Assembly (NCBI RefSeq): GCF_036711975.1
Contig: NW_027248940.1
Coordinates: forward strand, 1,550,001-1,614,000
Length of the DNA stretch: 64,000 nucleotides
Reading direction: 5' to 3'
Source of the DNA: Onthophagus taurus
Lineage: Eukaryota > Arthropoda > Insecta > Coleoptera > Scarabaeidae
Shown here: piece by piece, positions 2,316 to 54,936 of the stretch
Position numbering within the stretch: position 1 is the stretch's first letter
How the letters are laid out: every line of letters begins with the position of its first letter
The notes under the pieces: generated by a model
Databases searched by the model: none
What the model saw: only the letters and a program-made list of their open reading frames with translations
What the model was told of the DNA's origin: nothing
Program-made: the position numbers and the translations under genes

Positions 2316-2397
2316 CAAACAAGCATACAAAATCTAAGGTGGCGCGCTAGGTAGCGTATGTCAGTTGTTTCGAATAGTAAATTGACAGTTGTCAAAG

Positions 2398-3414
2398 ATG
2401 CCGTTATCAATAACTGATGTTGCGCGTATTATTAGTTTAATTGAAGATGGCAAAAGTCAGCGGTACGTCGTCCATACGTTGGGTATACGCCGAACAGTTC
2501 AGGATGCCTGGAACCTCTATGTGGAAACAGGAAATTTTACTAGGCGGCAAGGTTCCGGTAGAAGACGAGTGACAACAGCAGTTGATGATCGATTTATTGT
2601 GCTAAACACTCTGAGGAATCGTAGAACGACTGCTGTAGAAATTCGGCATCGTCTTCAAATGGTGCGTGGGGTTGACGTAAGTGAAAGAACCATTCGTCGA
2701 AGACTTGCCGAAAGTGATCTAACTGCAAGAAGACCTGCCAAAAGACAGCGGCTGCTGAAGAGATATTGGCGAGCACGTTTTCAATTTGGGCGCCTACATA
2801 CGAATTGGGAAATGGAACAATGGGGTAAGGTGCTCTTCACTGACGAGTCCCGATTATGTCTCCGGTCACCTGATGGTCGAGAACGAGTGTGGAGACGTCG
2901 TAATGAACGGTTTGCGAACTGCACAATTTCGGAAAGAGTACCTTTCCATGGAGGTTCGGTCATGGTATGGGCGGGTATTTCGACAGAAGCGCATACAGCG
3001 CTCATCTTTGTTGAAAATGGCACGCTAAATGCCCACCGTTATATCCAAGATATTCTGCAAGAAGCTGTCATGCCCTATTCCTATTTTATTGGTGACGGAT
3101 TCATGCTAATGCATGACAATGCGCGACCGCACGTAGCACGTGTGGTTAGCGAATATCTTGATGAGGTGGGTATTGAATGGATGGAGTGGCCTGCGTGCAG
3201 CCCGGACCATAACCCTATCGAACATCTTTGGGATCAACTTCAGAGACGCATTCGTCGTCGTCCTGTCCTACCGGACAACCTTCAGGAGTTACGAATTGCT
3301 CTTGAAGAAGAGTTTACCGCAATTCCTCAGGAATCAATTACGAACCTAATCAGTTCGATGCCGCGTCGACTACATGATGTTATTTTGGCTCGTGGGGGGC
3401 ACACACGCTATTAA
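2398..3414 (+). CDS. Tc1/mariner transposase, intact (DD34E)
   Basis: Cut-and-paste transposase that would bind the element's TIRs and move it by a DDE reaction into TA sites. The first ATG in frame is at 2398, giving 338 aa, the usual Tc1 length. An N-terminal paired-like helix-turn-helix half (about residues 1-110: ITDVARIISLIEDGKS, then TRRQGSGRRR, then VSERTIRRRL) precedes the catalytic domain. Catalytic residues are in LFTDES (first D), MHDNARPH (second D) and SPDHNPIEHLWD (E). Thirty-four residues lie between the second D and the E, so this is DD34E. No stop or frameshift is present, so this protein could still be made. The gene ends GGHTRY and TAA. A GRPR-like basic stretch and many Arg near residues 100-120 may serve nuclear entry. 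Family assignment is firm; activity is inference. Confidence 0.92.
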   Translation: MPLSITDVARIISLIEDGKSQRYVVHTLGIRRTVQDAWNLYVETGNFTRRQGSGRRRVTTAVDDRFIVLNTLRNRRTTAVEIRHRLQMVRGVDVSERTIRRRLAESDLTARRPAKRQRLLKRYWRARFQFGRLHTNWEMEQWGKVLFTDESRLCLRSPDGRERVWRRRNERFANCTISERVPFHGGSVMVWAGISTEAHTALIFVENGTLNAHRYIQDILQEAVMPYSYFIGDGFMLMHDNARPHVARVVSEYLDEVGIEWMEWPACSPDHNPIEHLWDQLQRRIRRRPVLPDNLQELRIALEEEFTAIPQESITNLISSMPRRLHDVILARGGHTRY

Positions 3415-7215: not shown

Positions 7216-9978
7216 TTAAACGCATTCAAATTTAGAGACTTCAAGAGCCTTTATTATAATCCGCTGCCTCTTAGAGCCTGGCAGCGGATTATAATATTTA
7301 GGAAGGCAATAAGTGAAGGATCGTTCAAATAACGAGGTCTCGTGTTTAGGAGGTGTAATAATACCTCTATTTCTAATATTGATATTATGAACATCTGTCC
7401 TGAATGATATTTTATTGTATAGATACGGGGGCTTCTTCAACATGAGAAGTTTATGGTAGAATGATAATAAATGCAACTTTCTTCTGTTGGACATATTCAA
7501 CCAACCAGCATCTATTAATTTATGAGACACATGATCATACCGTTTTAAACCGTATACAAGCCTGAGGCAAGCATTCTGTAGCCGCTGTACACGACTTACT
7601 GAAGTGCTAGCCAAACAGGTACCAAAAACCTTATCACAAAAGGTGAAATTACTAAGTACAAGGGTATTGCACAGTTTTAACAGTGTAGCTTTAGATACTG
7701 TGTGCCTAATGCCATAAATTAATTTCAACGTTGCATATGATTTATTGGTTTTCTGTGTAATATGTGTTTTAAATCTAATATCTGAATCCTGATACAATCC
7801 CAAATTACGAAAACAGCATCCTACATTAATTCGCTGGTCATCAACTTCTATACTAAAATGAGTAGAATGTTCTTCTCGCAAACCCCGCCTACCAAAAAGC
7901 ATCAATGCCGACTTGGCACCATTCACCTTCAAATTATGTCCAGAAGAAATTTCCACTAAGTTCCTAATTTCCCGTGTTAATATAGTTTCAGCCAGAGATA
8001 TATCACTGGGAGCAAATCTCAGATATAGTTGGGTGTCATCTGCGTAAAAATGACAGCTACAGTGTTTCAAACTATTTGAAAAGTTGGATGTATATAACGA
8101 AAACAAAAGTGGCCCCAATATAGAACCCTGCGGCACACCCGCCGACACCCTCCGAGGCTCAGATATAGAGTTGTTTATCTTAACTTTTTGGTATCTATTG
8201 CACAAGTAATTGGAGACCAATGATATAGCATTAGCGCTAAACCCAACAAAATTTAAGACAGAACTTAACAAGGAATGGTTTACAGTATCGAAAGCTTTTG
8301 AGTAATCCAACAAAACTAATGCAGTCATATCGTTTTCATCAATCGCCCGGAGAATGTCGTCGGTAATATGCATTAACGCTGTTTCACAACCATAATGTTT
8401 ACGAAATCCAGACTGATTTGGAGGTAGGATATTATAGCCGTCAATAAAAGTTCTAATTTGCCAGTCCATAACTTTCTCCACAACCTTTGCAAGAACCGGG
8501 AGAATGCTAATAGGTCGTAAATCCTTGTACTCTTGGGGATTAGAAATTTTTGGTAATGGAGTTACCAGAGCGGTCTTCCAACAGGAAGGAAAAACACATT
8601 TCTCCAAACAGTAATTAACTATATGCGTCAAATGTGGGAGTATAAAAGGACAGCAGTACAAGAGCATTGACAACGAAATACCATCATCCCCGACAGCATT
8701 AGATTTCATTTTAAGTAAATAACTTGCAACAACGTTTTCATGTACAGTTTCGAAATCAAAATACTTCTGAAATTCACATTTTTTGTTACTGTTATAAAAG
8801 TGCATAACATCACTTGAAGGTGCTCCTAATGAACAACCTGTCTGGAGAAAGTGGTTATTAATGTCATTCGCATTTCTTAAATGCATGGGCAAAGTGTTTA
8901 CTCTATTCCTGATCACTCCGAAATCACGAACAACACGCCACAGCGCAGATGTCCCAGTTCGACTCGTTGCCCCCTCAAAGTACACCCTTTTTTCAGTTTT
9001 GATGGCATTTGTCACGTGTCTTCTCAACGTTTTATACTGCTCTAGGTCTAATACATTTTTTGTACGCTTATATTTAGCATAAGCTTTATTTCTAACCGCG
9101 ATCATTTCCTTGATTTGGGGTGTAAGCCACGGAGCAGGTTTTTTTGTAAATCTTTTCGTTTGTAGTGGTGCATGTAAATCAAATAGATCTAGTATTAAAG
9201 AATTAAAATAATTCACTTTTTCATCAATGCCGTTAATTTCAAAAATTAATTGTAAAGGTAATGATTCAAGTTCTCTACTAAACAGATCGAGATTAAACCT
9301 CTTAAAGTCTCTATAAGTTCGAAATGTAGGAACAGGCTTTGTACTAGCAGTTTTCAAATGAGAGTGTACCAGTTCGTGATCTGAAAGGTGGGGTAGTGAA
9401 TATAAACCAACCAGGGTGAATTCTTCACATGAACATGCAGTAATATCTATTAAAGTTTCGGAATTAAGTGTAATACGGGTTGGTTGATTAACAAGTTGAA
9501 CCAGACCAAACGACTCCAGCAAATCAAGGAAAATGCGTGAATGTGTACTTTCAGGGTGCAACAAATCAATATTTATATCACCGGCAATAAATAGTTCATT
9601 ACATTGTGGTATAGCTAAACTTAAGGATTCCTCGAGAGACTCAAAGAATAATGGCAGACTTCCGGTCGGGGGCCTGTACATTACACCAAAAATATATTTA
9701 ACTTTGTTAATCGTTACAGCGATCCATAGCTGTTCTAAATGAACATATGTTTTTATGTTAACCTTGCTGGGTCTATATAAGTTCTTAATATAAATGCCTA
9801 CACCACCACCTCGCTTACCAGACCTTGGGCGATGTATGAATGTATAATTTTCGATAGAACACACCGCTTCCGTATGTTCATCCGCCAACCAGGTCTCCGT
9901 AACCAATACAGTAATGTACTCACGAAATTCAGCAATACTAGGCAGCAACGACCTAATGTTAATGGATGCTATATTCAT
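7216..9978 (-). CDS. LINE ORF2: APE endonuclease and reverse transcriptase
   Basis: Nicks target DNA and copies the LINE RNA into the break. From the ATG at 9978 the protein is 920 aa with no stop. Order: APE-type endonuclease (about 1-230: catalytic Asn in SINIRSL, Glu in TETWL, RGGGVGIYIK, GDINIDLL, LSDHELV), linker with KKPAPWLTP, then reverse transcriptase (about 430-710) with DLRPISILPV, QSGFRKHYGCETAL, LDYSKAFDTVNH, AGVPQGSILGPLLFS and the active-site FYADDTQLY (YADD at 8035-8046), then the conserved C-terminal thumb (QNACLRLVYG, TPPKHETSLFERSF). No RNase H. The spacing between NIRSL and TETWL is several residues shorter than usual for this group, so a small endonuclease deletion may have disabled it. 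The clade (CR1/L2/Daphne-like) is judged by eye. Confidence 0.9.
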   Translation of the reverse strand: MNIASINIRSLLPSIAEFREYITVLVTETWLADEHTEAVCSIENYTFIHRPRSGKRGGGVGIYIKNLYRPSKVNIKTYVHLEQLWIAVTINKVKYIFGVMYRPPTGSLPLFFESLEESLSLAIPQCNELFIAGDINIDLLHPESTHSRIFLDLLESFGLVQLVNQPTRITLNSETLIDITACSCEEFTLVGLYSLPHLSDHELVHSHLKTASTKPVPTFRTYRDFKRFNLDLFSRELESLPLQLIFEINGIDEKVNYFNSLILDLFDLHAPLQTKRFTKKPAPWLTPQIKEMIAVRNKAYAKYKRTKNVLDLEQYKTLRRHVTNAIKTEKRVYFEGATSRTGTSALWRVVRDFGVIRNRVNTLPMHLRNANDINNHFLQTGCSLGAPSSDVMHFYNSNKKCEFQKYFDFETVHENVVASYLLKMKSNAVGDDGISLSMLLYCCPFILPHLTHIVNYCLEKCVFPSCWKTALVTPLPKISNPQEYKDLRPISILPVLAKVVEKVMDWQIRTFIDGYNILPPNQSGFRKHYGCETALMHITDDILRAIDENDMTALVLLDYSKAFDTVNHSLLSSVLNFVGFSANAISLVSNYLCNRYQKVKINNSISEPRRVSAGVPQGSILGPLLFSLYTSNFSNSLKHCSCHFYADDTQLYLRFAPSDISLAETILTREIRNLVEISSGHNLKVNGAKSALMLFGRRGLREEHSTHFSIEVDDQRINVGCCFRNLGLYQDSDIRFKTHITQKTNKSYATLKLIYGIRHTVSKATLLKLCNTLVLSNFTFCDKVFGTCLASTSVSRVQRLQNACLRLVYGLKRYDHVSHKLIDAGWLNMSNRRKLHLLSFYHKLLMLKKPPYLYNKISFRTDVHNINIRNRGIITPPKHETSLFERSFTYCLPKYYNPLPGSKRQRIIIKALEVSKFECV

Positions 9979-10281
9979 GTTGTGAACAATAATAAAAAAA
10001 AGACAAACAAAATACAAAAAAAAAAAAACAATAATAACTACAATTAAATGAAATTTAACTATTGAAAAAGATTTAAATATATATAAACTACATTCTAGAG
10101 TGCTTTCCCTCCAGGTAACAAATCAACTAGATTCGTCAATTAGATCAAACGGAGGAAAAGTCTCAAAACAATCGAAAGATTGTATATATATTTTTAACAA
10201 TCGAAAACAAAAAAGAAGAAAAAAAAAACGGAAAAATCGAACAGAAATTTTTCGAAAAAAGCAAGAATCGAAAAAGTTATA

Positions 10282-11550: not shown

Positions 11551-12876
11551 TTATTTCTTTTTCAAAACTAACGATGAAATAGTTCTCGACCAAGCGTAGC
11601 ATCGTTTAAGATCCTAAAATGAAATAACTTCATTAATTTACTCTTACTATTAAATTATTAGTTATTTAGTGATTTACCAAAGTCATTGTGTTATAAGAAA
11701 CAATACCAAACAACCCCAATTTAATGTTTAAAACCCGTTGGGTTAAACAAAGGAAAATTAAGACATCCTTTTGCAACTTAACATCGCCATCGTACCAATT
11801 TAAGTTATAAACGGCTTCTGCTAAAGATAGATTCTAAAAAAAGGATTAATTTTTTAATTCATATTTGTTTTTAGTTACCGCATCAATCACTCGTTGTCCG
11901 ATTGTGTTAAATATCATCAACGAGATTAAGCATAGGGTAAAGTTTATGAAGCTAAATAAATCGTAATGCTTAAAAATAAATTAATTAATTAATTAATAAA
12001 TAAATAAATAACTAAATTGTAATACTGACTAAAACAAACGTTGAAGTGGTTAAGATGATGAATCCACTTGCACAAAATCGTTCCAATATTATTAATTTTC
12101 CAAAAACATTGCACGACAGATTAAATAAGAGAAAAATGTCTTGGTGATACCGAATAACATCGCGGAATTTATCGCTGTCTTTCATCCCGTTGAAATTAAT
12201 TTGATTAACCAAGATCGTAAGGTGTCTTAATCGAATTATTATTGTTTCAAAAATATAAATAAACATGGAAATCCCTCCGATTCCGATGTTCCAAATTGTG
12301 ATGGTCATAAACATCTCTTCAACAACTAAAATCTCCTCCAACGAAGACGAAATTTTATTTGGGAGAAAATACTCCATGACTAAATAACAACGAGTATTAG
12401 AACAATTTTTCTTCAACAACAAAGCGTTGTAATAAATCATCATTTCGATTAATGTTACGAAAGGAGCGTATTTTAAACAATTCTTAATCAAAGTATCGAT
12501 TAAGCGGAGCTCCTTCGGGATTCCAAACCGATCAAAATTGCTTAAATTATAAATTAAATGAATTAATTTCTTCTTTTCTGTTGTAAGTATCACTGTGATT
12601 AATCCGTAATTGAACAACAATAAATAGGCGTAAATCTCTTTTAGGTACGAGCGAAACTCAATTTGGGGGTCTAAAAATGATTGGGGTTAAAATTAATTCA
12701 TTAATAACTTAATAAGACTTACTTGTAACTTTTTGAAGAAACGGGTAAAAAGTTAGGATTATATGTAAAATGATCATTATAACTAGTTTGTTTTTGTATA
12801 GGGGAGATAAAGGGGAGCATTGAATTTTGTTAAAATAGTTCATGATTACTAAGAAACCGATGGTTTTAATCCACAT
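11551..12876 (-). CDS. Odorant receptor A (insect 7tm_6 family), five exons
   Basis: Ligand-binding subunit of an insect odorant-gated cation channel in olfactory neurons, normally paired with Orco. Exons on the minus strand: 12876-12723, 12670-12030, 11968-11879, 11833-11678, 11613-11551; lengths 154, 641, 90, 156 and 63 nt. All introns are short with GT-AG ends and the frame stays open, giving 367 aa, a little below the usual 380-420. Family evidence: several hydrophobic segments, the RLRHLTILVNQ and FRDVIRYHQDIF motifs before the pore region, and the C-terminus AEAVYNLNWYD, CLTQRVLNIKLGLFGIVS, NTMTLDLKRCYAW. There is no gustatory-receptor TYhhhhhQF motif. The start (MWIKTIGF) could be extended upstream a few codons. 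Gene and 0.7-kb upstream region are duplicated in inverted orientation at 30510-32460, also intact. The exon 2 donor (GTCAGT) is the weakest call. Confidence 0.82.
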
Positions 12877-31090: not shown

Positions 31091-32413
31091 ATGCGGATTA
31101 AAACCATTGGGTTTTTAGAAATCATGAACTATTTTAACAAAATTCAATGCTCCCCTTTATCCCCCCTCTACAAAAACAAACTATTTATAATGACCATTTT
31201 AAATATAATCCTAACTTTTTACCCGTTTGTTCAAAAACTTACAAGTAAGTCTTATTAAGTTATTAATAAATTAATTTTAACCCCAATCACTTTTCAGACC
31301 CCCAAATTGAGTTTCACTCGTACCTAATAGAGATTTACGCCTATTTAATAGGTATCAATTTCGGATTAATCGCAATAATACTTACAAAAGAAAAAAAGAA
31401 ATTAATTAATTTAACTTATAATTTAAGTAATTTTGATCGGTTTGGAGTCCCGAAGGAGCTCCGCTTAATCGATACTTTGATTAAGAATGGTTTAAAATAC
31501 GCTCATTTCACAACATTAATCGGAATGATGATTTATTACAACGCTTTGTTGTTGAAGAAAAGTTGTTCTAATATTCGTTGTTATTTAATCATGGAGTATT
31601 TTCTCCCAAATAAAATTTCGTCTTCGTTGGAGGAGATTTTAGTTGTTGAAGAGATGTTTATGACCATCACAATTTGGAACATCGGAATCGGAGGGATTTC
31701 CATGTTGATTTATGTTTTCGAAATAATAATAATTCGATTAAGACACCTTACGATCTTAATTAACCAAATTAATTTCAACGGGATGAAAGACAGCGATAAA
31801 TTCCGCGATGTTATTGAGTATCATCAAGAAATTTTTCGCTTATTTAATCTTTCGTGCGAAGTTTTTGGAAAATTAATTATATTGCAACGATTTTGTTCAA
31901 TTGGATTCATCGTTTTAAACATCTCAACGTTTGTTTTAGTCAGTATTACAATTTCTTTATTTATTTATTAATTAATTAATTAATTTATTTTTAAGCGTTA
32001 CGATTTATTTAGCTTCATAAACATTATCTCAAGCTTATTCTCGTTGATGATGTTTAACACAATCGGACAACGTGTCATTGATGCGGTAATTAAAAACAAA
32101 TATGAATTAAAAAATTAATCCTTTTTTTAGAATCTCTTTTTAGCAGAAGCCGTTTATAACTTAAATTGGTACGATGCCGATGTTAAGTTGCAAAAGGATG
32201 TCTTAATTTTCCTTTGTTTAACCCAACGCGTTTTAAACATTAAATTGGGGTTGTTCGGTATTGTTTCTTATAACACAATGACTTTGGTAAATCACTAAAT
32301 AATTAATAACTTAACAGTAAGAGTAAATTAATGAAGTTATTTTATTTTAGGATCTTAAAAGATGCTACGCTTGGTCGAGAACTATTTCAACATTAGTTTT
32401 GAAAAAGAAATAA
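31091..32413 (+). CDS. Odorant receptor B (insect 7tm_6 family), five exons
   Basis: Paralogue of the receptor at 11551-12876. Exons: 31091-31244, 31298-31938, 31996-32085, 32131-32286, 32351-32413; all five lengths equal those of receptor A and every intron is GT-AG, giving 367 aa with no stop. Shared motifs: FDRFGVPKELRLIDTLIKN, EEILVVEEMFMTITIWN, IIRLRHLTILINQ, FRDVIEYHQEIF, AEAVYNLNWYDADVKLQKD, LKRCYAWSRT. Amino-acid differences are scattered (for example VIRYHQDIFLL against VIEYHQEIFRL; CASGFIILTTS against CSIGFIVLNIS) and introns differ by small indels. So this is a real duplication that is no longer brand new, and both copies appear maintained. Ligand unknown. About 40 residues of the first exon precede the first long hydrophobic helix. 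Confidence 0.82.
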
Positions 32414-44760: not shown

Positions 44761-44877
44761 TTAAACGGTAGATGGCGCCACATCATCTGTCACTTTTGAC
44801 GTTTCATCCCAACCTTCATTTAAAACGCACATAAAAACAACAAGAAATTTCTGTTAAAGTTTCTAAACCGAATAAAA
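44761..44877 (+). promoter_or_regulatory. Probable promoter and leader of TBCB
   Basis: Unique sequence between the satellite edge and the start codon. It contains AGATGGCGCCACATCATCTG (44769 on) and TGACGTTTCATCC, with no TATA box, as expected for a housekeeping gene. Assigned by position only. Confidence 0.35.
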
Positions 44878-45609
44878 ATGATGGCAGATTACAAAGTAAT
44901 CACCCCCGATTTTGTAAATTTACACATTTCAACATCGAACAGTGATATACCATCGTTCAACGATAAACGTTTTCCAAAAGACACAACAATCGCCGATTTG
45001 AAGGCTAAGTTGGAGTTAATAACCGGGGGCTCAAGCGCAACGATGCAATTAGAAGGTTACTCGAAAGATAATAAACTAATTTGTACCCTAAGCGATGATT
45101 CAGCTCAATTGGGTCAATACCCGTTGGAAGATGGGATGCGGTTACACGTTGTTGATAAATTCTCGATAAAAAATGAGTTAGATTTTGGAAATGTACCCAA
45201 ATTCGAACTCTCCGATGAGCTTTACGCGAATAAAGCCGATTCACTTCGAGCGTTTTTAATGAGAAACAAACTGGGTCATTACAACGAGGATAATATTCAA
45301 AATAAAGAAAAATTAAAGAAGGAAGAACAAGAAATTTGCGAAGCTGTTGTTTTGGGGAGTCGATGTAAAGTTGAGATTGCTGGTGCTGCGACCAGATTGG
45401 GATGTGTTATGTTTAAAGGAAAAGTTGAAGGGTTAGATGGATTTTGGATTGGGGTTAAATATGATGAGCCTTTGGGAAAGAATGATGGTTCAGTTAAAGG
45501 GAAGAGGTATTTTGAGTGTCCCATGAATTATGGAGCTTTTGTTAAACCACAAAATGTACTTTGTGGGGATTTTCCAGAGGAAGATTATGATTTAAATGAA
45601 GAAATTTAA
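44878..45609 (+). CDS. TBCB: Tubulin-folding cofactor B
   Basis: Cytoplasmic cofactor that takes alpha-tubulin from the chaperonin CCT and, with cofactor E, helps build or take apart alpha/beta tubulin dimers. The 243-aa protein has the full family layout: a ubiquitin-like domain (about 10-92), a charged helical linker (about 115-155), and a CAP-Gly domain (about 159-230) with GFWIGVKYDEPLGKNDG (GKNDG motif at 200-204), KGKRYFEC and YGAFVKPQNV. The acidic tail ends DLNEEI, like the acidic C-terminal tails of other TBCB proteins. Two adjacent ATGs (44878, 44881) could start it. It is a single exon, so either an ancestral intronless form or a retrocopy; no poly-A tract or target duplication was found. 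It lies between inverted arms of the same satellite. Confidence 0.95.
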   Translation: MMADYKVITPDFVNLHISTSNSDIPSFNDKRFPKDTTIADLKAKLELITGGSSATMQLEGYSKDNKLICTLSDDSAQLGQYPLEDGMRLHVVDKFSIKNELDFGNVPKFELSDELYANKADSLRAFLMRNKLGHYNEDNIQNKEKLKKEEQEICEAVVLGSRCKVEIAGAATRLGCVMFKGKVEGLDGFWIGVKYDEPLGKNDGSVKGKRYFECPMNYGAFVKPQNVLCGDFPEEDYDLNEEI

Positions 45610-49515: not shown

Positions 49516-50373
49516 ACGCACTCTGGCGATATTTTGAATCAATACAATCGTAGCACTCAAAGAGTTCATACGTGGGTCTATAATGTTTTCCCATGAATCT
49601 TCTGATTCAAATTACGACACAACACAAGGCACCACAACACATTGCGGCACACAAATATAAATCTCACCATAGTAAATGAAGGGTACAGGGGAAAAACATA
49701 CTAAGTCACAAAAATTCATTTTTTAGATTTTGGTGCCATCTGTTAGCGACGACATGACTCTAGCTTTGTATCAAGTCCATATAATGAAATATCAATCCTA
49801 GTCCATAGAAATCGGCTTTGAAATTTGAGTGTGCAACGAAAGAACATTCTAAGTCCACCGGACTCATCAAGCAGGCTTGCATAAATGTGACGTTTGCAGC
49901 AGATTGCGTCAGTGTGACAAGTTATGTCGTTGTAATGTGTTTGTGCTTGAAATTTTAAATTTTCTTATTGACTTACTGATCGTGTTTAATACAGTGTTAA
50001 TAATGTCGAGTGAAGACGAAAATGAGACGTCTGTAAGTTTTGGACGAAATACAAAAAAAAGGAAAGTTACAGGAAGATTACGTTCTGCTAATAAGAGGTT
50101 ACGTGTTGCTAGCAATGAGTGTGGTGACAGTTGCTCCTGCAAGCGTTTAAAATATTTTAAAGAAAGAGACGGTTTGTTAAAAGATTTTAATTTGCTGGGA
50201 TCGAAAAACAATCAAAGTGCTTATTTAGCTGGCTTAATTTCAATTCATCAGATAAAACGTAGAAGACCACGAAAAAATGAAGCAGACAGTAACTTGCACA
50301 ATCATGCATTTTGTTACAAAGTTAGATTGGTACGTGAAACAGGTGCGATTGAGGTTCCTATATGCAGGAAGGT

Positions 50374-52716
50374 TGAATGTGCCTACTCTATCTGCCGTTA
50401 TAACTGCAAAGCGGGACGCCGTTCTACAAGCAAGCGGCTCTGCAGACCAAATAGTAGCCAAAACTATGTATGTGCTAAGAGACGCATGTGAGGCTTCTAT
50501 GCCAAAAACAAGAAAGCATCGTTCAAAGCCAGCAACGTACTGGTGGACGCCTGAGATAGCAGAACTCTGCAAGGCCTGTCTCCACAGTCGAAGAAAGCTT
50601 ACCAGGCATAAACGCAGAGACTCGCAAAATGTAACACGAGAGACGGAGGAGTTGAAACGTGCCAAAAAGCTGCTAAAAGCCGCAATCTGGGAAAGCAAGA
50701 AGAAGAAGTGGGAGGAGATGTGGGAAGACGTTAATCGCGACCCATGGGGCCTGGGCTATAGGGTGGCCGTGAAAAAACTCGGTCACGCTTCTGCACCTGT
50801 AGTGTTTGACGCCGAGATGATGTTACCCATAGTCAACGCACTCTTTCCAAACCGACCCAAGCAGAATTTTTCATCCCTTCTCAACACGAACGAGGCTTCC
50901 CTTTTCACCGACGAGGAATTAGTTAAGGCTTGCACTTCGATAAAGAATAGAAAGGCGCCAGGCCCGGATGGAATTCCTTCGGAGGCCCTTAAGGTGGCCG
51001 TTACAACATCCCCTGATGTCATGCTACACATGTACAACGCATGCCTTAAAGAGGGTACTTTCCCCGATGCCTGGAAGGTACAGAGATTGGTTTTGATTCG
51101 AAAAAAAAAGGCGATCCTTCTTGTCCATCTGCATACCGACTCCTGTCCATGCTGGACACCGCGGGGAAGCTGCTTGAAAGGCTGCTTCGGAGCAGATTAA
51201 ATAATGTGATAGAGAGCGCAGGCGGACTAGCAACCAGACAGCACGGCTTCCGCACTGGCAGATCGACGATAGGAGCCGTCAAAGAAATAGTCCAAACTTT
51301 TAAGGAGGCTCAACGAAAAAACCATTACTCTAGGCCCATCGTAGTACTGATCACCTTAGACATTAGAAACTCGTTTAACTCTGCGCGCTGGGAGGAGATC
51401 CTCCATGCCTTGGAACGAAACTTCGCAACCCCGGACTATCTGTTGCGGATTCTGGGAAGTTACTTCACAAATAGGATTCTATCCTACGATACCCCACAAG
51501 GCCCAAGAACAAAGAGGATGACATGCGGAGTGGCGCAGGGGTCCGTCCTCGGTCCGGTGCTGTGGAACGTCTTCTACGACGGGATTCTGCGGCTGCAGAT
51601 GCCTGACGGAGTTTTTCTGTGGGCTACGCGGACGATTTGGCTGCGGTGATCCAGGCACGGAACGAAACCGAGGCTCAGAGAAGTATAAACAGAGTAATGA
51701 GAAGGACAAGCTGTTGGATGATGGACCGCGGTCTGACCCTTGCGGCTGATAAAACGGAAATCATCCTGCTTACTGGACGCCGCATACCGCTGGAGATAGG
51801 TTTCAAAGTTCAAGAGACCGAAACCGTCAGTCGGAAAGCCCTGAAATATTTGGGGGTAACGCTCGACAATAGACTAACATTCCGAGATCATGTGAGGTGT
51901 GCCTGCGATAGAGCGGCAAAAATTACAACAATGCTGAGTCGCATAATGGGAAATGTTGGCGGACCGACTGCGACCAAGCGCAGACTACTTATGGAGGTCT
52001 CAAATGCCATAATGTTATACGGCTGCGAGATCTGGACCGATGATCTAAGGCAGGATAGCCACAAACGTCTCATATCAGTCCAAAGAAGAAGTGCCCTGCG
52101 GATTACATCTGCGTATAGAACAGTGTCAGGACCTGCGGTGCTTGTAATCGCTGGCATTATCGTCATCGCTTGACCTACTAGCTGCGGAAAGAAAGGAGGT
52201 ATATGAAACAAAAGACGCAGTAGAACCGATACAAGCGCGTAAGCAGGCTAGAATGCATACATGTGATAAATGGCAGAAGCTATGGGACGAGGAAACCCGA
52301 GGCAGGTGGACGGCTCGACCGATCCCGCGTATTCAGATTTGGCGTGATCGAAAGCACGGCGAAGTCAATTACTACATTACCCAAATCCTAACGGGGCACG
52401 GATATTTTTGTAAATACCTCTAGAACATCGGAAAAGTAAATAGCCCTGCTTGCCCATATGCGGATGGGCTGACAGATGACGCCGAACACACAGTGTTCCA
52501 CTGCCACAGATGGAAAACCGAAAGGGAAGAGTTGACGGCAAATGTAGGCCCTATAGCACCCGACACGCTGGTCAACAAAATGATTAGTGACGAAGCGACT
52601 TGGACAACAATCGTTACCTTTTTGGCGAAGGTCCTCACCCAGAAGAAACTTGAAATGGATGTCGCCCTAGTCCATCTACACGAAGCTGAGTACAGAGAGG
52701 GCTCCCCGATAGGATG
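50374..52716 (+). pseudogene. R1-type LINE ORF2, frameshifted
   Basis: Frame 1 (to 51110): endonuclease-RT linker with YWWTPEIAEL and NRKAPGPDGIPSEAL, FPDAWKVQRLVLI. A shift near 51105 leads to LLDTAGKLLERLL, TRQHGFRTGRSTIGAV, ITLDIRNSFNSARW and GVAQGSVLGPVLWN. A second shift near 51615 leads to VGYADDLAAVIQ (YADD at 51625-51636), ALKYLGVTLD, QRRSALRITSAYRTVS. After another break near 52150 come GEVNYYITQILTGHGYF and CPYADGLTDDAEHTVFHCHRW, ending SPIG and stop at 52716. In the zinc knuckle the second Cys is Ala. At least three breaks make it inactive. The AYRT.S, NYY.TQ.LTGHG and C-terminal CCHC signatures indicate the R1 clade. Confidence 0.85.
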
Positions 52717-52764
52717 AATAGCCTTTTCTGATCCTTTATTCAACGCTACTACAACTACCAGCTG

Positions 52765-53035
52765 AAGCCGGAGGGGGGAACCCCGATGGGACGAAGAGCC
52801 CCCCTCCGATACCTGTAAGTTTACGGTTTTATATGCAAACCTAGAAGTAATCACATATTTTTAATTTTTTATACGTACCTGGACCCGACGTGAAGTTGAT
52901 CCAACTGCTGAAGTCGGAGGGGGGATCCCCGACGGGACGAAGAGCCCCCCTCCGATACCTACGTACCTGGACCCGACGTGGAGCTGATCCAACTGATGAA
53001 GACGGAGGGGGGACGAAGAACCCCCCTCCGATGCC
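52765..53035 (+). repeat. Tandem GC-rich hairpins in the LINE 3' UTR
   Basis: Three repeats of a module with CGGAGGGGGG, a short spacer containing GGGACGAAGA, and CCCCCCTCCGATRCCT (52770-52810, 52916-52957, 53003-53034), separated by repeated ACGTACCTGGACCCGACGTG segments. Each G6 and C6 block can pair as a strong hairpin, in sharp contrast with the AT-rich surroundings. Confidence 0.75.
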
Positions 53036-54936
53036 TGTAAGTTAACGGTCTTAAATGCAAACGTAAAAGTAACCATATGTTTTTATTTTGTTATACGTAC
53101 CTTAACCCGACGTGGAGTCTTCGATGCCTACGTACCTGTATTTGAAGTGCAGTAGATCCACTAAAGTACTGAAGAATCACAGAAGATGGATGGGGGATCC
53201 CCAAGCACACGAAATGCTCCGATGAAATACCCAGAAGGGTGGTCCCGGAGCTGGGGAAAGAGGGGGAGTTTTTAGTGGGTAACTTAGGGACTAGAGTCCC
53301 ACACTTCCGGCCGAAATATTTCCCAACACATCACCATCTACAAGCGCCAACAGTAGGCCGGGGTGCATAACGCATTTTCTCCCCCTCAGCGCAAAAAAAA
53401 AAAAAAAAAAATATGCAGGAAGGTATTTCTTTCAATTTTTGGGATAACTTCTCAGATCATAAGGACTAGCCAACATTCACTTATTACAACAGGAAATCCT
53501 CCAATCGACAACAGGTGTAAACACAAAAATAGAAAACACAAACTGTCAGACTAAACAATAGAAAGGATTCATTCCCACATTCAGTCTCTAAAAGGTAGGA
53601 AATCACACTATAGCTTGCATGATTCCAAACGTTTATATTTACCTGATGATCTTTCGATTAAAAAATTGCACAATATGTACACTGATATAATAAATCCAGA
53701 AAATCCCGTGTCATACGAATGTTACAGAAATATTGTTAATACCCAATATAATATTTCATTTGGGTATCCAAGAACAGACACCTGCTCGAACTGCGACGAA
53801 TTTCAGGCTAAGGTGTCATGCCTTCAAAAAGAAAAAGAAAATTGTACACCAGAAGAGTGCATCGCAAAAGAAAAGGATATACGGAATTTAACCATACTTA
53901 ACGAGTTACATTTGAGAAAAGCTAAAATGTTTTATAAGAGGAAAAGATTAGCAAAGAAAATAGCAAGAAAATCTGCCTGTTATGAATCCATCTGCATGGA
54001 TTTTATGAAGAATCTGCCGGTGCCTAATATTCCAACAAATGACGTATATTATAAACGTCAGTTGTCATTTTATATGTTCAATATCCATGTTCTTTCTACC
54101 GCCGAATCTTACTTTTTCACATATTATGATCAGACCATTGCAAAAAAGGGAGCAGAGGATGTGGTCTCTATGCTTTACCACTTTTGCAAAAACATTTTGC
54201 CACCTGAAGTAAAACACCTTGATATATTTTGCGACAGTTGTGCCGGGCAAAATAAAAATTCATGACCTAGATCAACACAAAAGTTAGAATTGAGCAGCCT
54301 TCACAGTGGAATGAACATGTACGAACATCACGCTCAAAACCTTCCCCATTTACAGTAATCGAATGCGATAGGAGCCTCTTTAAACATTGGAGTAAATACT
54401 TTTTGACCACGTCCTACAAAAAAAAAAGCTTCTTTTCAGACCAGACCCATTATTGAGATTCTCTTTGAAAAACAACATCCACGGACAGTACAGTTACGGG
54501 AATCTTATTCTGGGAGCTGGGAATCTCACATTATACTGGACAAGAAGAAGAAGAAGACGAGTGTTTTACAGAACAGAAACCGAGAAGCAGAGGAATCAGA
54601 ACTACTTTATGAGGGCCCAATTCCGATTCCAAAAAAGAAATTCGATAACATAATGTTTTTAAGTCGCTTCTGCGTACCAGAAGCTAAACTGTTCTATGAT
54701 ATAAAGGGTATTTATTAAGACTAATCTGTTATACTTTCTTATTCAAACTAATTAATAGCATTATCTATATTTAAAAAGTTATAGAGTTTTGAACTTTAAA
54801 CTTCGATTATCTCGCAACTTGACTTTTGTGACTTAGTATGTTCTTCCCCTGTACCCTTCAAATGTATTCAACCGATCCGACTTAAATCCGGCTTGAGACG
54901 GTACCGAAATATCCGAGCTTATGTAACAGGTTTTTT

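Follow-up and report, generated by a model that had tools for sequence, protein, structure and literature searches.

Positions 49678-54859 of the DNA analysed here (64,000 nucleotides of Onthophagus taurus contig NW_027248940.1, positions 1,550,001 to 1,614,000 of the forward strand, hereafter "the window") hold a DNA transposon with terminal inverted repeats (TIRs). The copy is dead, because its transposase gene has premature stops (53552-53554 and 54263-54265) and lacks two stretches that a sister copy, locus L009, has. We regard it as very likely that the transposase of this element is a DUF7869 protein. Genes for such proteins are said to be frequent among insect and cnidarian gene models, where they stand as uncharacterised proteins; PF25273, the Pfam entry, carries no function, and neither DUF7869 nor PF25273 is named in any paper of the literature searched, which mostly leaves out subscription journals. 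A first-pass annotation of the window had proposed that DUF7869 proteins are transposases. The proposal is now backed by five TIR-bounded families, by 4-bp duplications that are perfect in 19 of the 22 copies with two ends, by three insertions with empty sites, by a conserved triad of aspartates, and by a structure model of RNase H type.

The 36-bp inverted repeats seen in the first pass are present at both ends and are identical at 35 of 36 positions (49678-49713 vs 54824-54859); a repeat search prolonged the pair to 52 nt at 85%. AAAT borders both ends, as had been reported, and its reading as a target-site duplication is backed by empty sites with a single tetramer (see below). The left TIR carries CTAAGT at element positions 24-29. 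The basic, Cys-containing protein noted at first is likewise encoded here, but its gene is broken by a retrotransposon, by stops, and by missing stretches. This retrotransposon, about which the first-pass annotation was silent, is of the non-long-terminal-repeat (non-LTR) type, splits the coding region at 50373, and gives a reverse transcriptase match at 2.4e-18; its 3′ part contains G-rich repeats of 54 nt, the arms of which are hairpin-like (52761-53036). Rfam gave no match within the window. The features of the element are as follows.

49674-49677, no strand: left target-site duplication AAAT; partner of 54860-54863, AAAT being present once at empty sites.
49678-49713, + strand: left 36-bp TIR, 35/36 identical to the right TIR.
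49842-49859, + strand: subterminal repeat GAACATTCTAAGTCCACC, which resembles the inner TIR, with CTAAGT at element position 172.
50003-50373, + strand: coding region for the basic, Cys-containing N-terminal part of the DUF7869 transposase; similar reading in L011 and L014.
50360-50373, + strand: left 14-bp duplication of the retrotransposon (repeat family D12).
50374-53410, + strand: non-LTR retrotransposon with reverse transcriptase and A-rich 3′ end; absent at this place in L009 and L013.
53411-53424, + strand: right 14-bp duplication of the retrotransposon (repeat family D12).
53425-54262, + strand: central and catalytic portion of the transposase with the first and second Asp and CDSCAGQNKN; premature stop at 53552-53554.
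54263-54718, + strand: decayed C-terminal part with frame shifts and missing stretches; FTVIECD and LSRFC.
54824-54859, - strand: right 36-bp TIR.
54860-54863, no strand: right target-site duplication AAAT; pairs with 49674-49677.

Searching the host genome (291 Mb in 33 contigs) for further copies, a check proposed in the first pass, gave at least 12 dispersed copies of the window family, the window copy included. Among the six two-ended copies compared, four have perfect duplications (AAAT in the window, AATT in L009, ATAT in L011 and in L013), and the other two mismatch at one base of four (GATT/AATT in L010, ATTT/ACTT in L012). Four more DUF7869 families have TIRs of their own. The duplications are perfect in all seven two-ended copies of F1 (L050-L058), in both of F2 (L059-L062) and both of F4 (L033, L035), and in four of the five of F6 (L063-L067), where L064 is flanked by TATT/TTTT and has its last TIR base changed. 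By sequence, the 19 perfect duplications are AATT (11), ATAT (6), and AAAT (2), and every one fits AWWT. TIR-bounded copies without a duplication were sought as a test of the transposon reading; the three imperfect cases among the 22 (L010, L012, and L064) each deviate at one base of four. Outer TIR sequences vary among the five families, and TAAG is found at TIR positions 25-28 in 40 of the 44 TIRs, the exceptions being one end each in L009, L013, L057, and L062. All five other two-ended copies of the window family have the CTAAGT of the subterminal GAACATTCTAAGTCCACC at the same end as the window copy, but elements do not carry clearly more CTAAGT motifs than chance would give. The subterminal repeat may be a transposase binding site.

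The tally covers copies with two complete ends. Left out, with only one complete end visible, were six of the 12 copies of the window family, two of the nine of F1, two of the four of F2, and L042 and L091 of F4; L036/L089 were also left out because their flanks duplicate those of L035. Contig C11 has two copies of one F4 element together with its near flanks (L035/L036), ~0.58 Mb apart; they agree at 99.9% in a comparison of 3.4 kb, which is likely a recent segmental duplication. For the other refuting condition set in the first pass, single-copy DUF7869 genes with no TIRs, 30 DUF7869 loci were examined, and both TIRs lie inside 1.5-kb flanks at only seven of them. An acceptable TIR pair was not found within such flanks for L023/L024/L029, L028/L030/L037/L038/L044, L020-L022, or L031, L045, and L048, and these groups were kept out of the duplication tally; inverted repeats 15-18 bp long, likewise not counted in it, are present in L028, L031, and L048.

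For another check suggested at the outset, on empty sites with a single AAAT-like tetramer, the two flanks of each of 17 perfect insertions from the families other than F4 were joined via one tetramer and run against the genome. Among the matches listed, empty sites were found for three of the 17 insertions, the window copy, L009, and L054. The joined L054 site is uninterrupted at no fewer than 40 places in the genome (at least 40, at 100%), the window-copy junction is spanned by at least nine matches (97-99%, reaching 13 bp beyond the junction), and that of L009 by at least 31 (87-96%). For L011, L013, and 12 other insertions, no empty site was seen among the matches listed. The sites with a single tetramer show therefore that the tetramer is a true duplication. 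A chance arrangement of TIRs and AAAT around a host gene would draw on the composition of the window, which is 68% A+T, so that short A/T tetramers are common (AWWT makes up 6.4% of its tetramers). The chance agreement of two random tetramers from the window is 0.007, and with 35 of 36 TIR positions matching, at least 12 dispersed copies, and the empty sites, we give this explanation practically no weight; the dispersed copies and the empty sites refute it.

The assignment of the window family to DUF7869 comes from its sister copies. L009 matches at E 5.4e-6 with 26.6 bits, the gathering cut-off being 26, and through this copy the family belongs to DUF7869, straddling the Pfam cut-off. Families other than that of the window score up to 69.9 bits, all 13 frames from this genome match PF25273 at E ≤ 0.1, and of the 536 DUF7869 candidates across the genome all 150 that were scored exceed the cut-off. 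The N-terminal frame of L011 gave no DUF7869 match.

The second and third aspartates do not vary among the 13 frames from this genome, and the first is present in all eight frames that extend to it. In L014, L035, and the bacterial L069 (discussed below), the three residues are spaced D-x76-79-D-x41-42-D, the third lying in a GH(S/T)xxxxD motif. In an alignment with L069, D149 and D227 of the window piece 53555-54262 stand opposite its D352 and D431. The model has an RNase H-type topology, and the best aligned solved structure is that of Mos1, at ~10% identity. As modelled, then, three acidic residues would sit on an RNase H core, as in DDE/D enzymes, and the transposase is probably of the RNase H type with a DDD triad. 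Sequence searches of the PDB returned nothing credible.

Several results weigh against a DUF7869 transposase in the window element. Its three transposase fragments gave no DUF7869 match in the Pfam scan, only weak hits to unrelated families, and two sister copies fall below the cut-off of 26 (L014 at 1.7e-5 and 25 bits, L010 at 0.016 and 15.2 bits). In addition, the third aspartate falls in a low-confidence loop of the model, and Foldseek found no match at E ≤ 0.001 against PDB or BFVD.

In a different reading, the DUF7869 proteins would be passengers, or else domesticated host genes, and a separate transposase would move the elements that carry them; L020-L022, which lack TIRs inside the retrieved DNA, lend this reading some support. 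Against it, the DUF7869 frame is by far the longest in nine of the ten elements checked (L050, L065, L009, and six bacterial ones), where the remaining frames have at most 176 residues; in the tenth, L059, it lies beside an equally long frame. Moreover, families with differing outer TIRs have DUF7869 in common, and its triad and fold resemble those of a transposase. The passenger role is accordingly very improbable, and a DUF7869 transposase is the reading that we keep.

DUF7869 also occurs outside animals. Ten DUF7869 loci emerged when bacterial and archaeal genomes were scanned; all five bacterial proteins scanned match the family (1.7e-15 to 4.1e-25), and for none of the five was there a credible NCBIfam name. 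Both TIRs were found at seven of the ten bacterial loci, delimiting insertion-sequence (IS)-like elements of 2.0-2.7 kb, six of which have one long frame; L071, L077, and L078 gave no accepted TIR pair. With the first G of the TIR taken, by eye, as the element end, duplications are perfect in three of the seven (AAAT in L069, ATTT in L074, AATT in L076), one base off in L070, L073, and L075, and two bases off in L072, and AWWT fits 13 of the 14 flanking tetramers. Contamination is less likely for L072, which comes from a named isolate and a contig of 148 kb, and for L073, which has a contig of 48 kb. Such elements are rare: of 395 genomes sampled from the phylum of L072, one has it, namely that of L072 itself. 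Phage records gave no match. A viral contig (L068), picked up by tblastn at 21% identity, was dropped, as its frames resemble, by eye, ordinary phage proteins.

The F4 TIR has an 11-bp run in common with the TIR of L076 at the same offset, and the last 10 bp of that run, CTGACAAAAC, are common with L072, again at the same offset. None of 20,000 letter shuffles reached 11 bp, in a comparison that is post hoc, the likeness having been seen first, that concerns one of five families, and that uses simple letter shuffles; the remaining four families have at most 4-7 bp in common with any bacterial TIR. In a tree of 27 sequences (six near-duplicate rows dropped, midpoint root only), L020-L022, from the animal genome studied here, nest in the bacterial branch with support of 0.994 and 1.000, and the placement of F4 has support of 0.055. 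The L020, L021, and L022 frames sit on 35-44 Mb contigs of this genome. A broader picture, in which DUF7869 forms a bacteria-to-animal transposase superfamily that is distinct from Sola or has yet to be linked to it, having kept the AWWT target and the inner TIR signature, with the L020-L022 lineage derived from inter-domain transfer, strikes us as speculative and rather unlikely.

Among known superfamilies, the closest published description is that of Sola2, and we therefore file the element as probably Sola, Sola2-like, as judged from published descriptions. As given in the part of PMC3627910 available, Sola2 duplications are AWWT (ATAT, AAAT, and ATTT are reported), the TIRs are 12-21 bp, and the transposase of one family has 888 residues; the likeness thus lies in the A/T-rich 4-bp AWWT duplication, the TIRs, and the single long transposase, and the difference in TIR length, 12-21 bp vs ~36 bp here. 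The Sola suggestion of the first pass agrees with the data at the level of description, in that the 4-bp AWWT duplication (19 of 22 perfect, all AWWT) fits Sola2 as given in that same part of PMC3627910. The third triad residue is Asp, and bacterial DUF7869 members exist. In the founding Sola abstract of 2009, Bao and colleagues reportedly described DDD transposases and 4-bp duplications in bacteria, protists, plants, and animals. Should DUF7869 transposons instead be a separate superfamily outside Sola, the AWWT duplication would be convergent. This is conceivable but on the unlikely side: the Sola2 likeness is one of published descriptions, the available part of PMC3627910 gives the Sola2 TIRs as shorter (12-21 bp), and the family is unnamed in the literature searched, whereas the AWWT duplication matches that of Sola2 exactly. 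The word Sola is absent from a 2023 paper that lists eukaryotic-prokaryotic transposon links in its introduction (PMC10045372).

The likeness to the Mos1 mariner transposase and retroviral integrases is in fold only, and mariner differs in that TA, not 4 bp, is duplicated (PMC3627910, in the part available). piggyBac and Kolobok resemble the element as transposons with 4-bp duplications. The piggyBac target is TTAA in the available part of PMC7351741. None of the 19 perfect duplications is TTAA, and both families were rejected. Kolobok has the same target, TTAA.

The following sequence of events would account for these features. The transposase would recognise the TIRs of ~36 bp with TAAG 25-28 bp from the end, its Cys-containing N-terminal part probably binding DNA via the TAAG-bearing inner TIR. 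Movement by cut-and-paste is favoured over copy-out: the element would be excised and then inserted at AWWT through cuts staggered by 4 nt, and repair of the gaps would yield the 4-bp duplication. Catalysis would be carried out by the RNase H fold with its three aspartates.

Elsewhere in the window, assignments by eye were made for several open frames. These frames look like a non-LTR endonuclease and reverse transcriptase (7216-10122, - strand, 968 residues), a Tc1/mariner-type transposase (2386-3414, + strand, 342 residues), two similar insect odorant-receptor fragments ~19 kb apart in opposite orientation (12012-12686, - strand; 31270-31971, + strand), and tubulin-binding cofactor B, a CAP-Gly protein (44824-45609), likely a host gene near the element.

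If DUF7869 proteins are transposases, many unnamed genes would gain a function; DUF7869 gene models would have to be masked and not counted as host genes, and single-copy survivors would be candidate domesticated transposases. The bacterial IS-like elements, at 2.0-2.7 kb, offer a compact system for the chemistry, and the TIR run that F4 and bacterial elements have in common at the same offset makes inter-domain transposon exchange testable.
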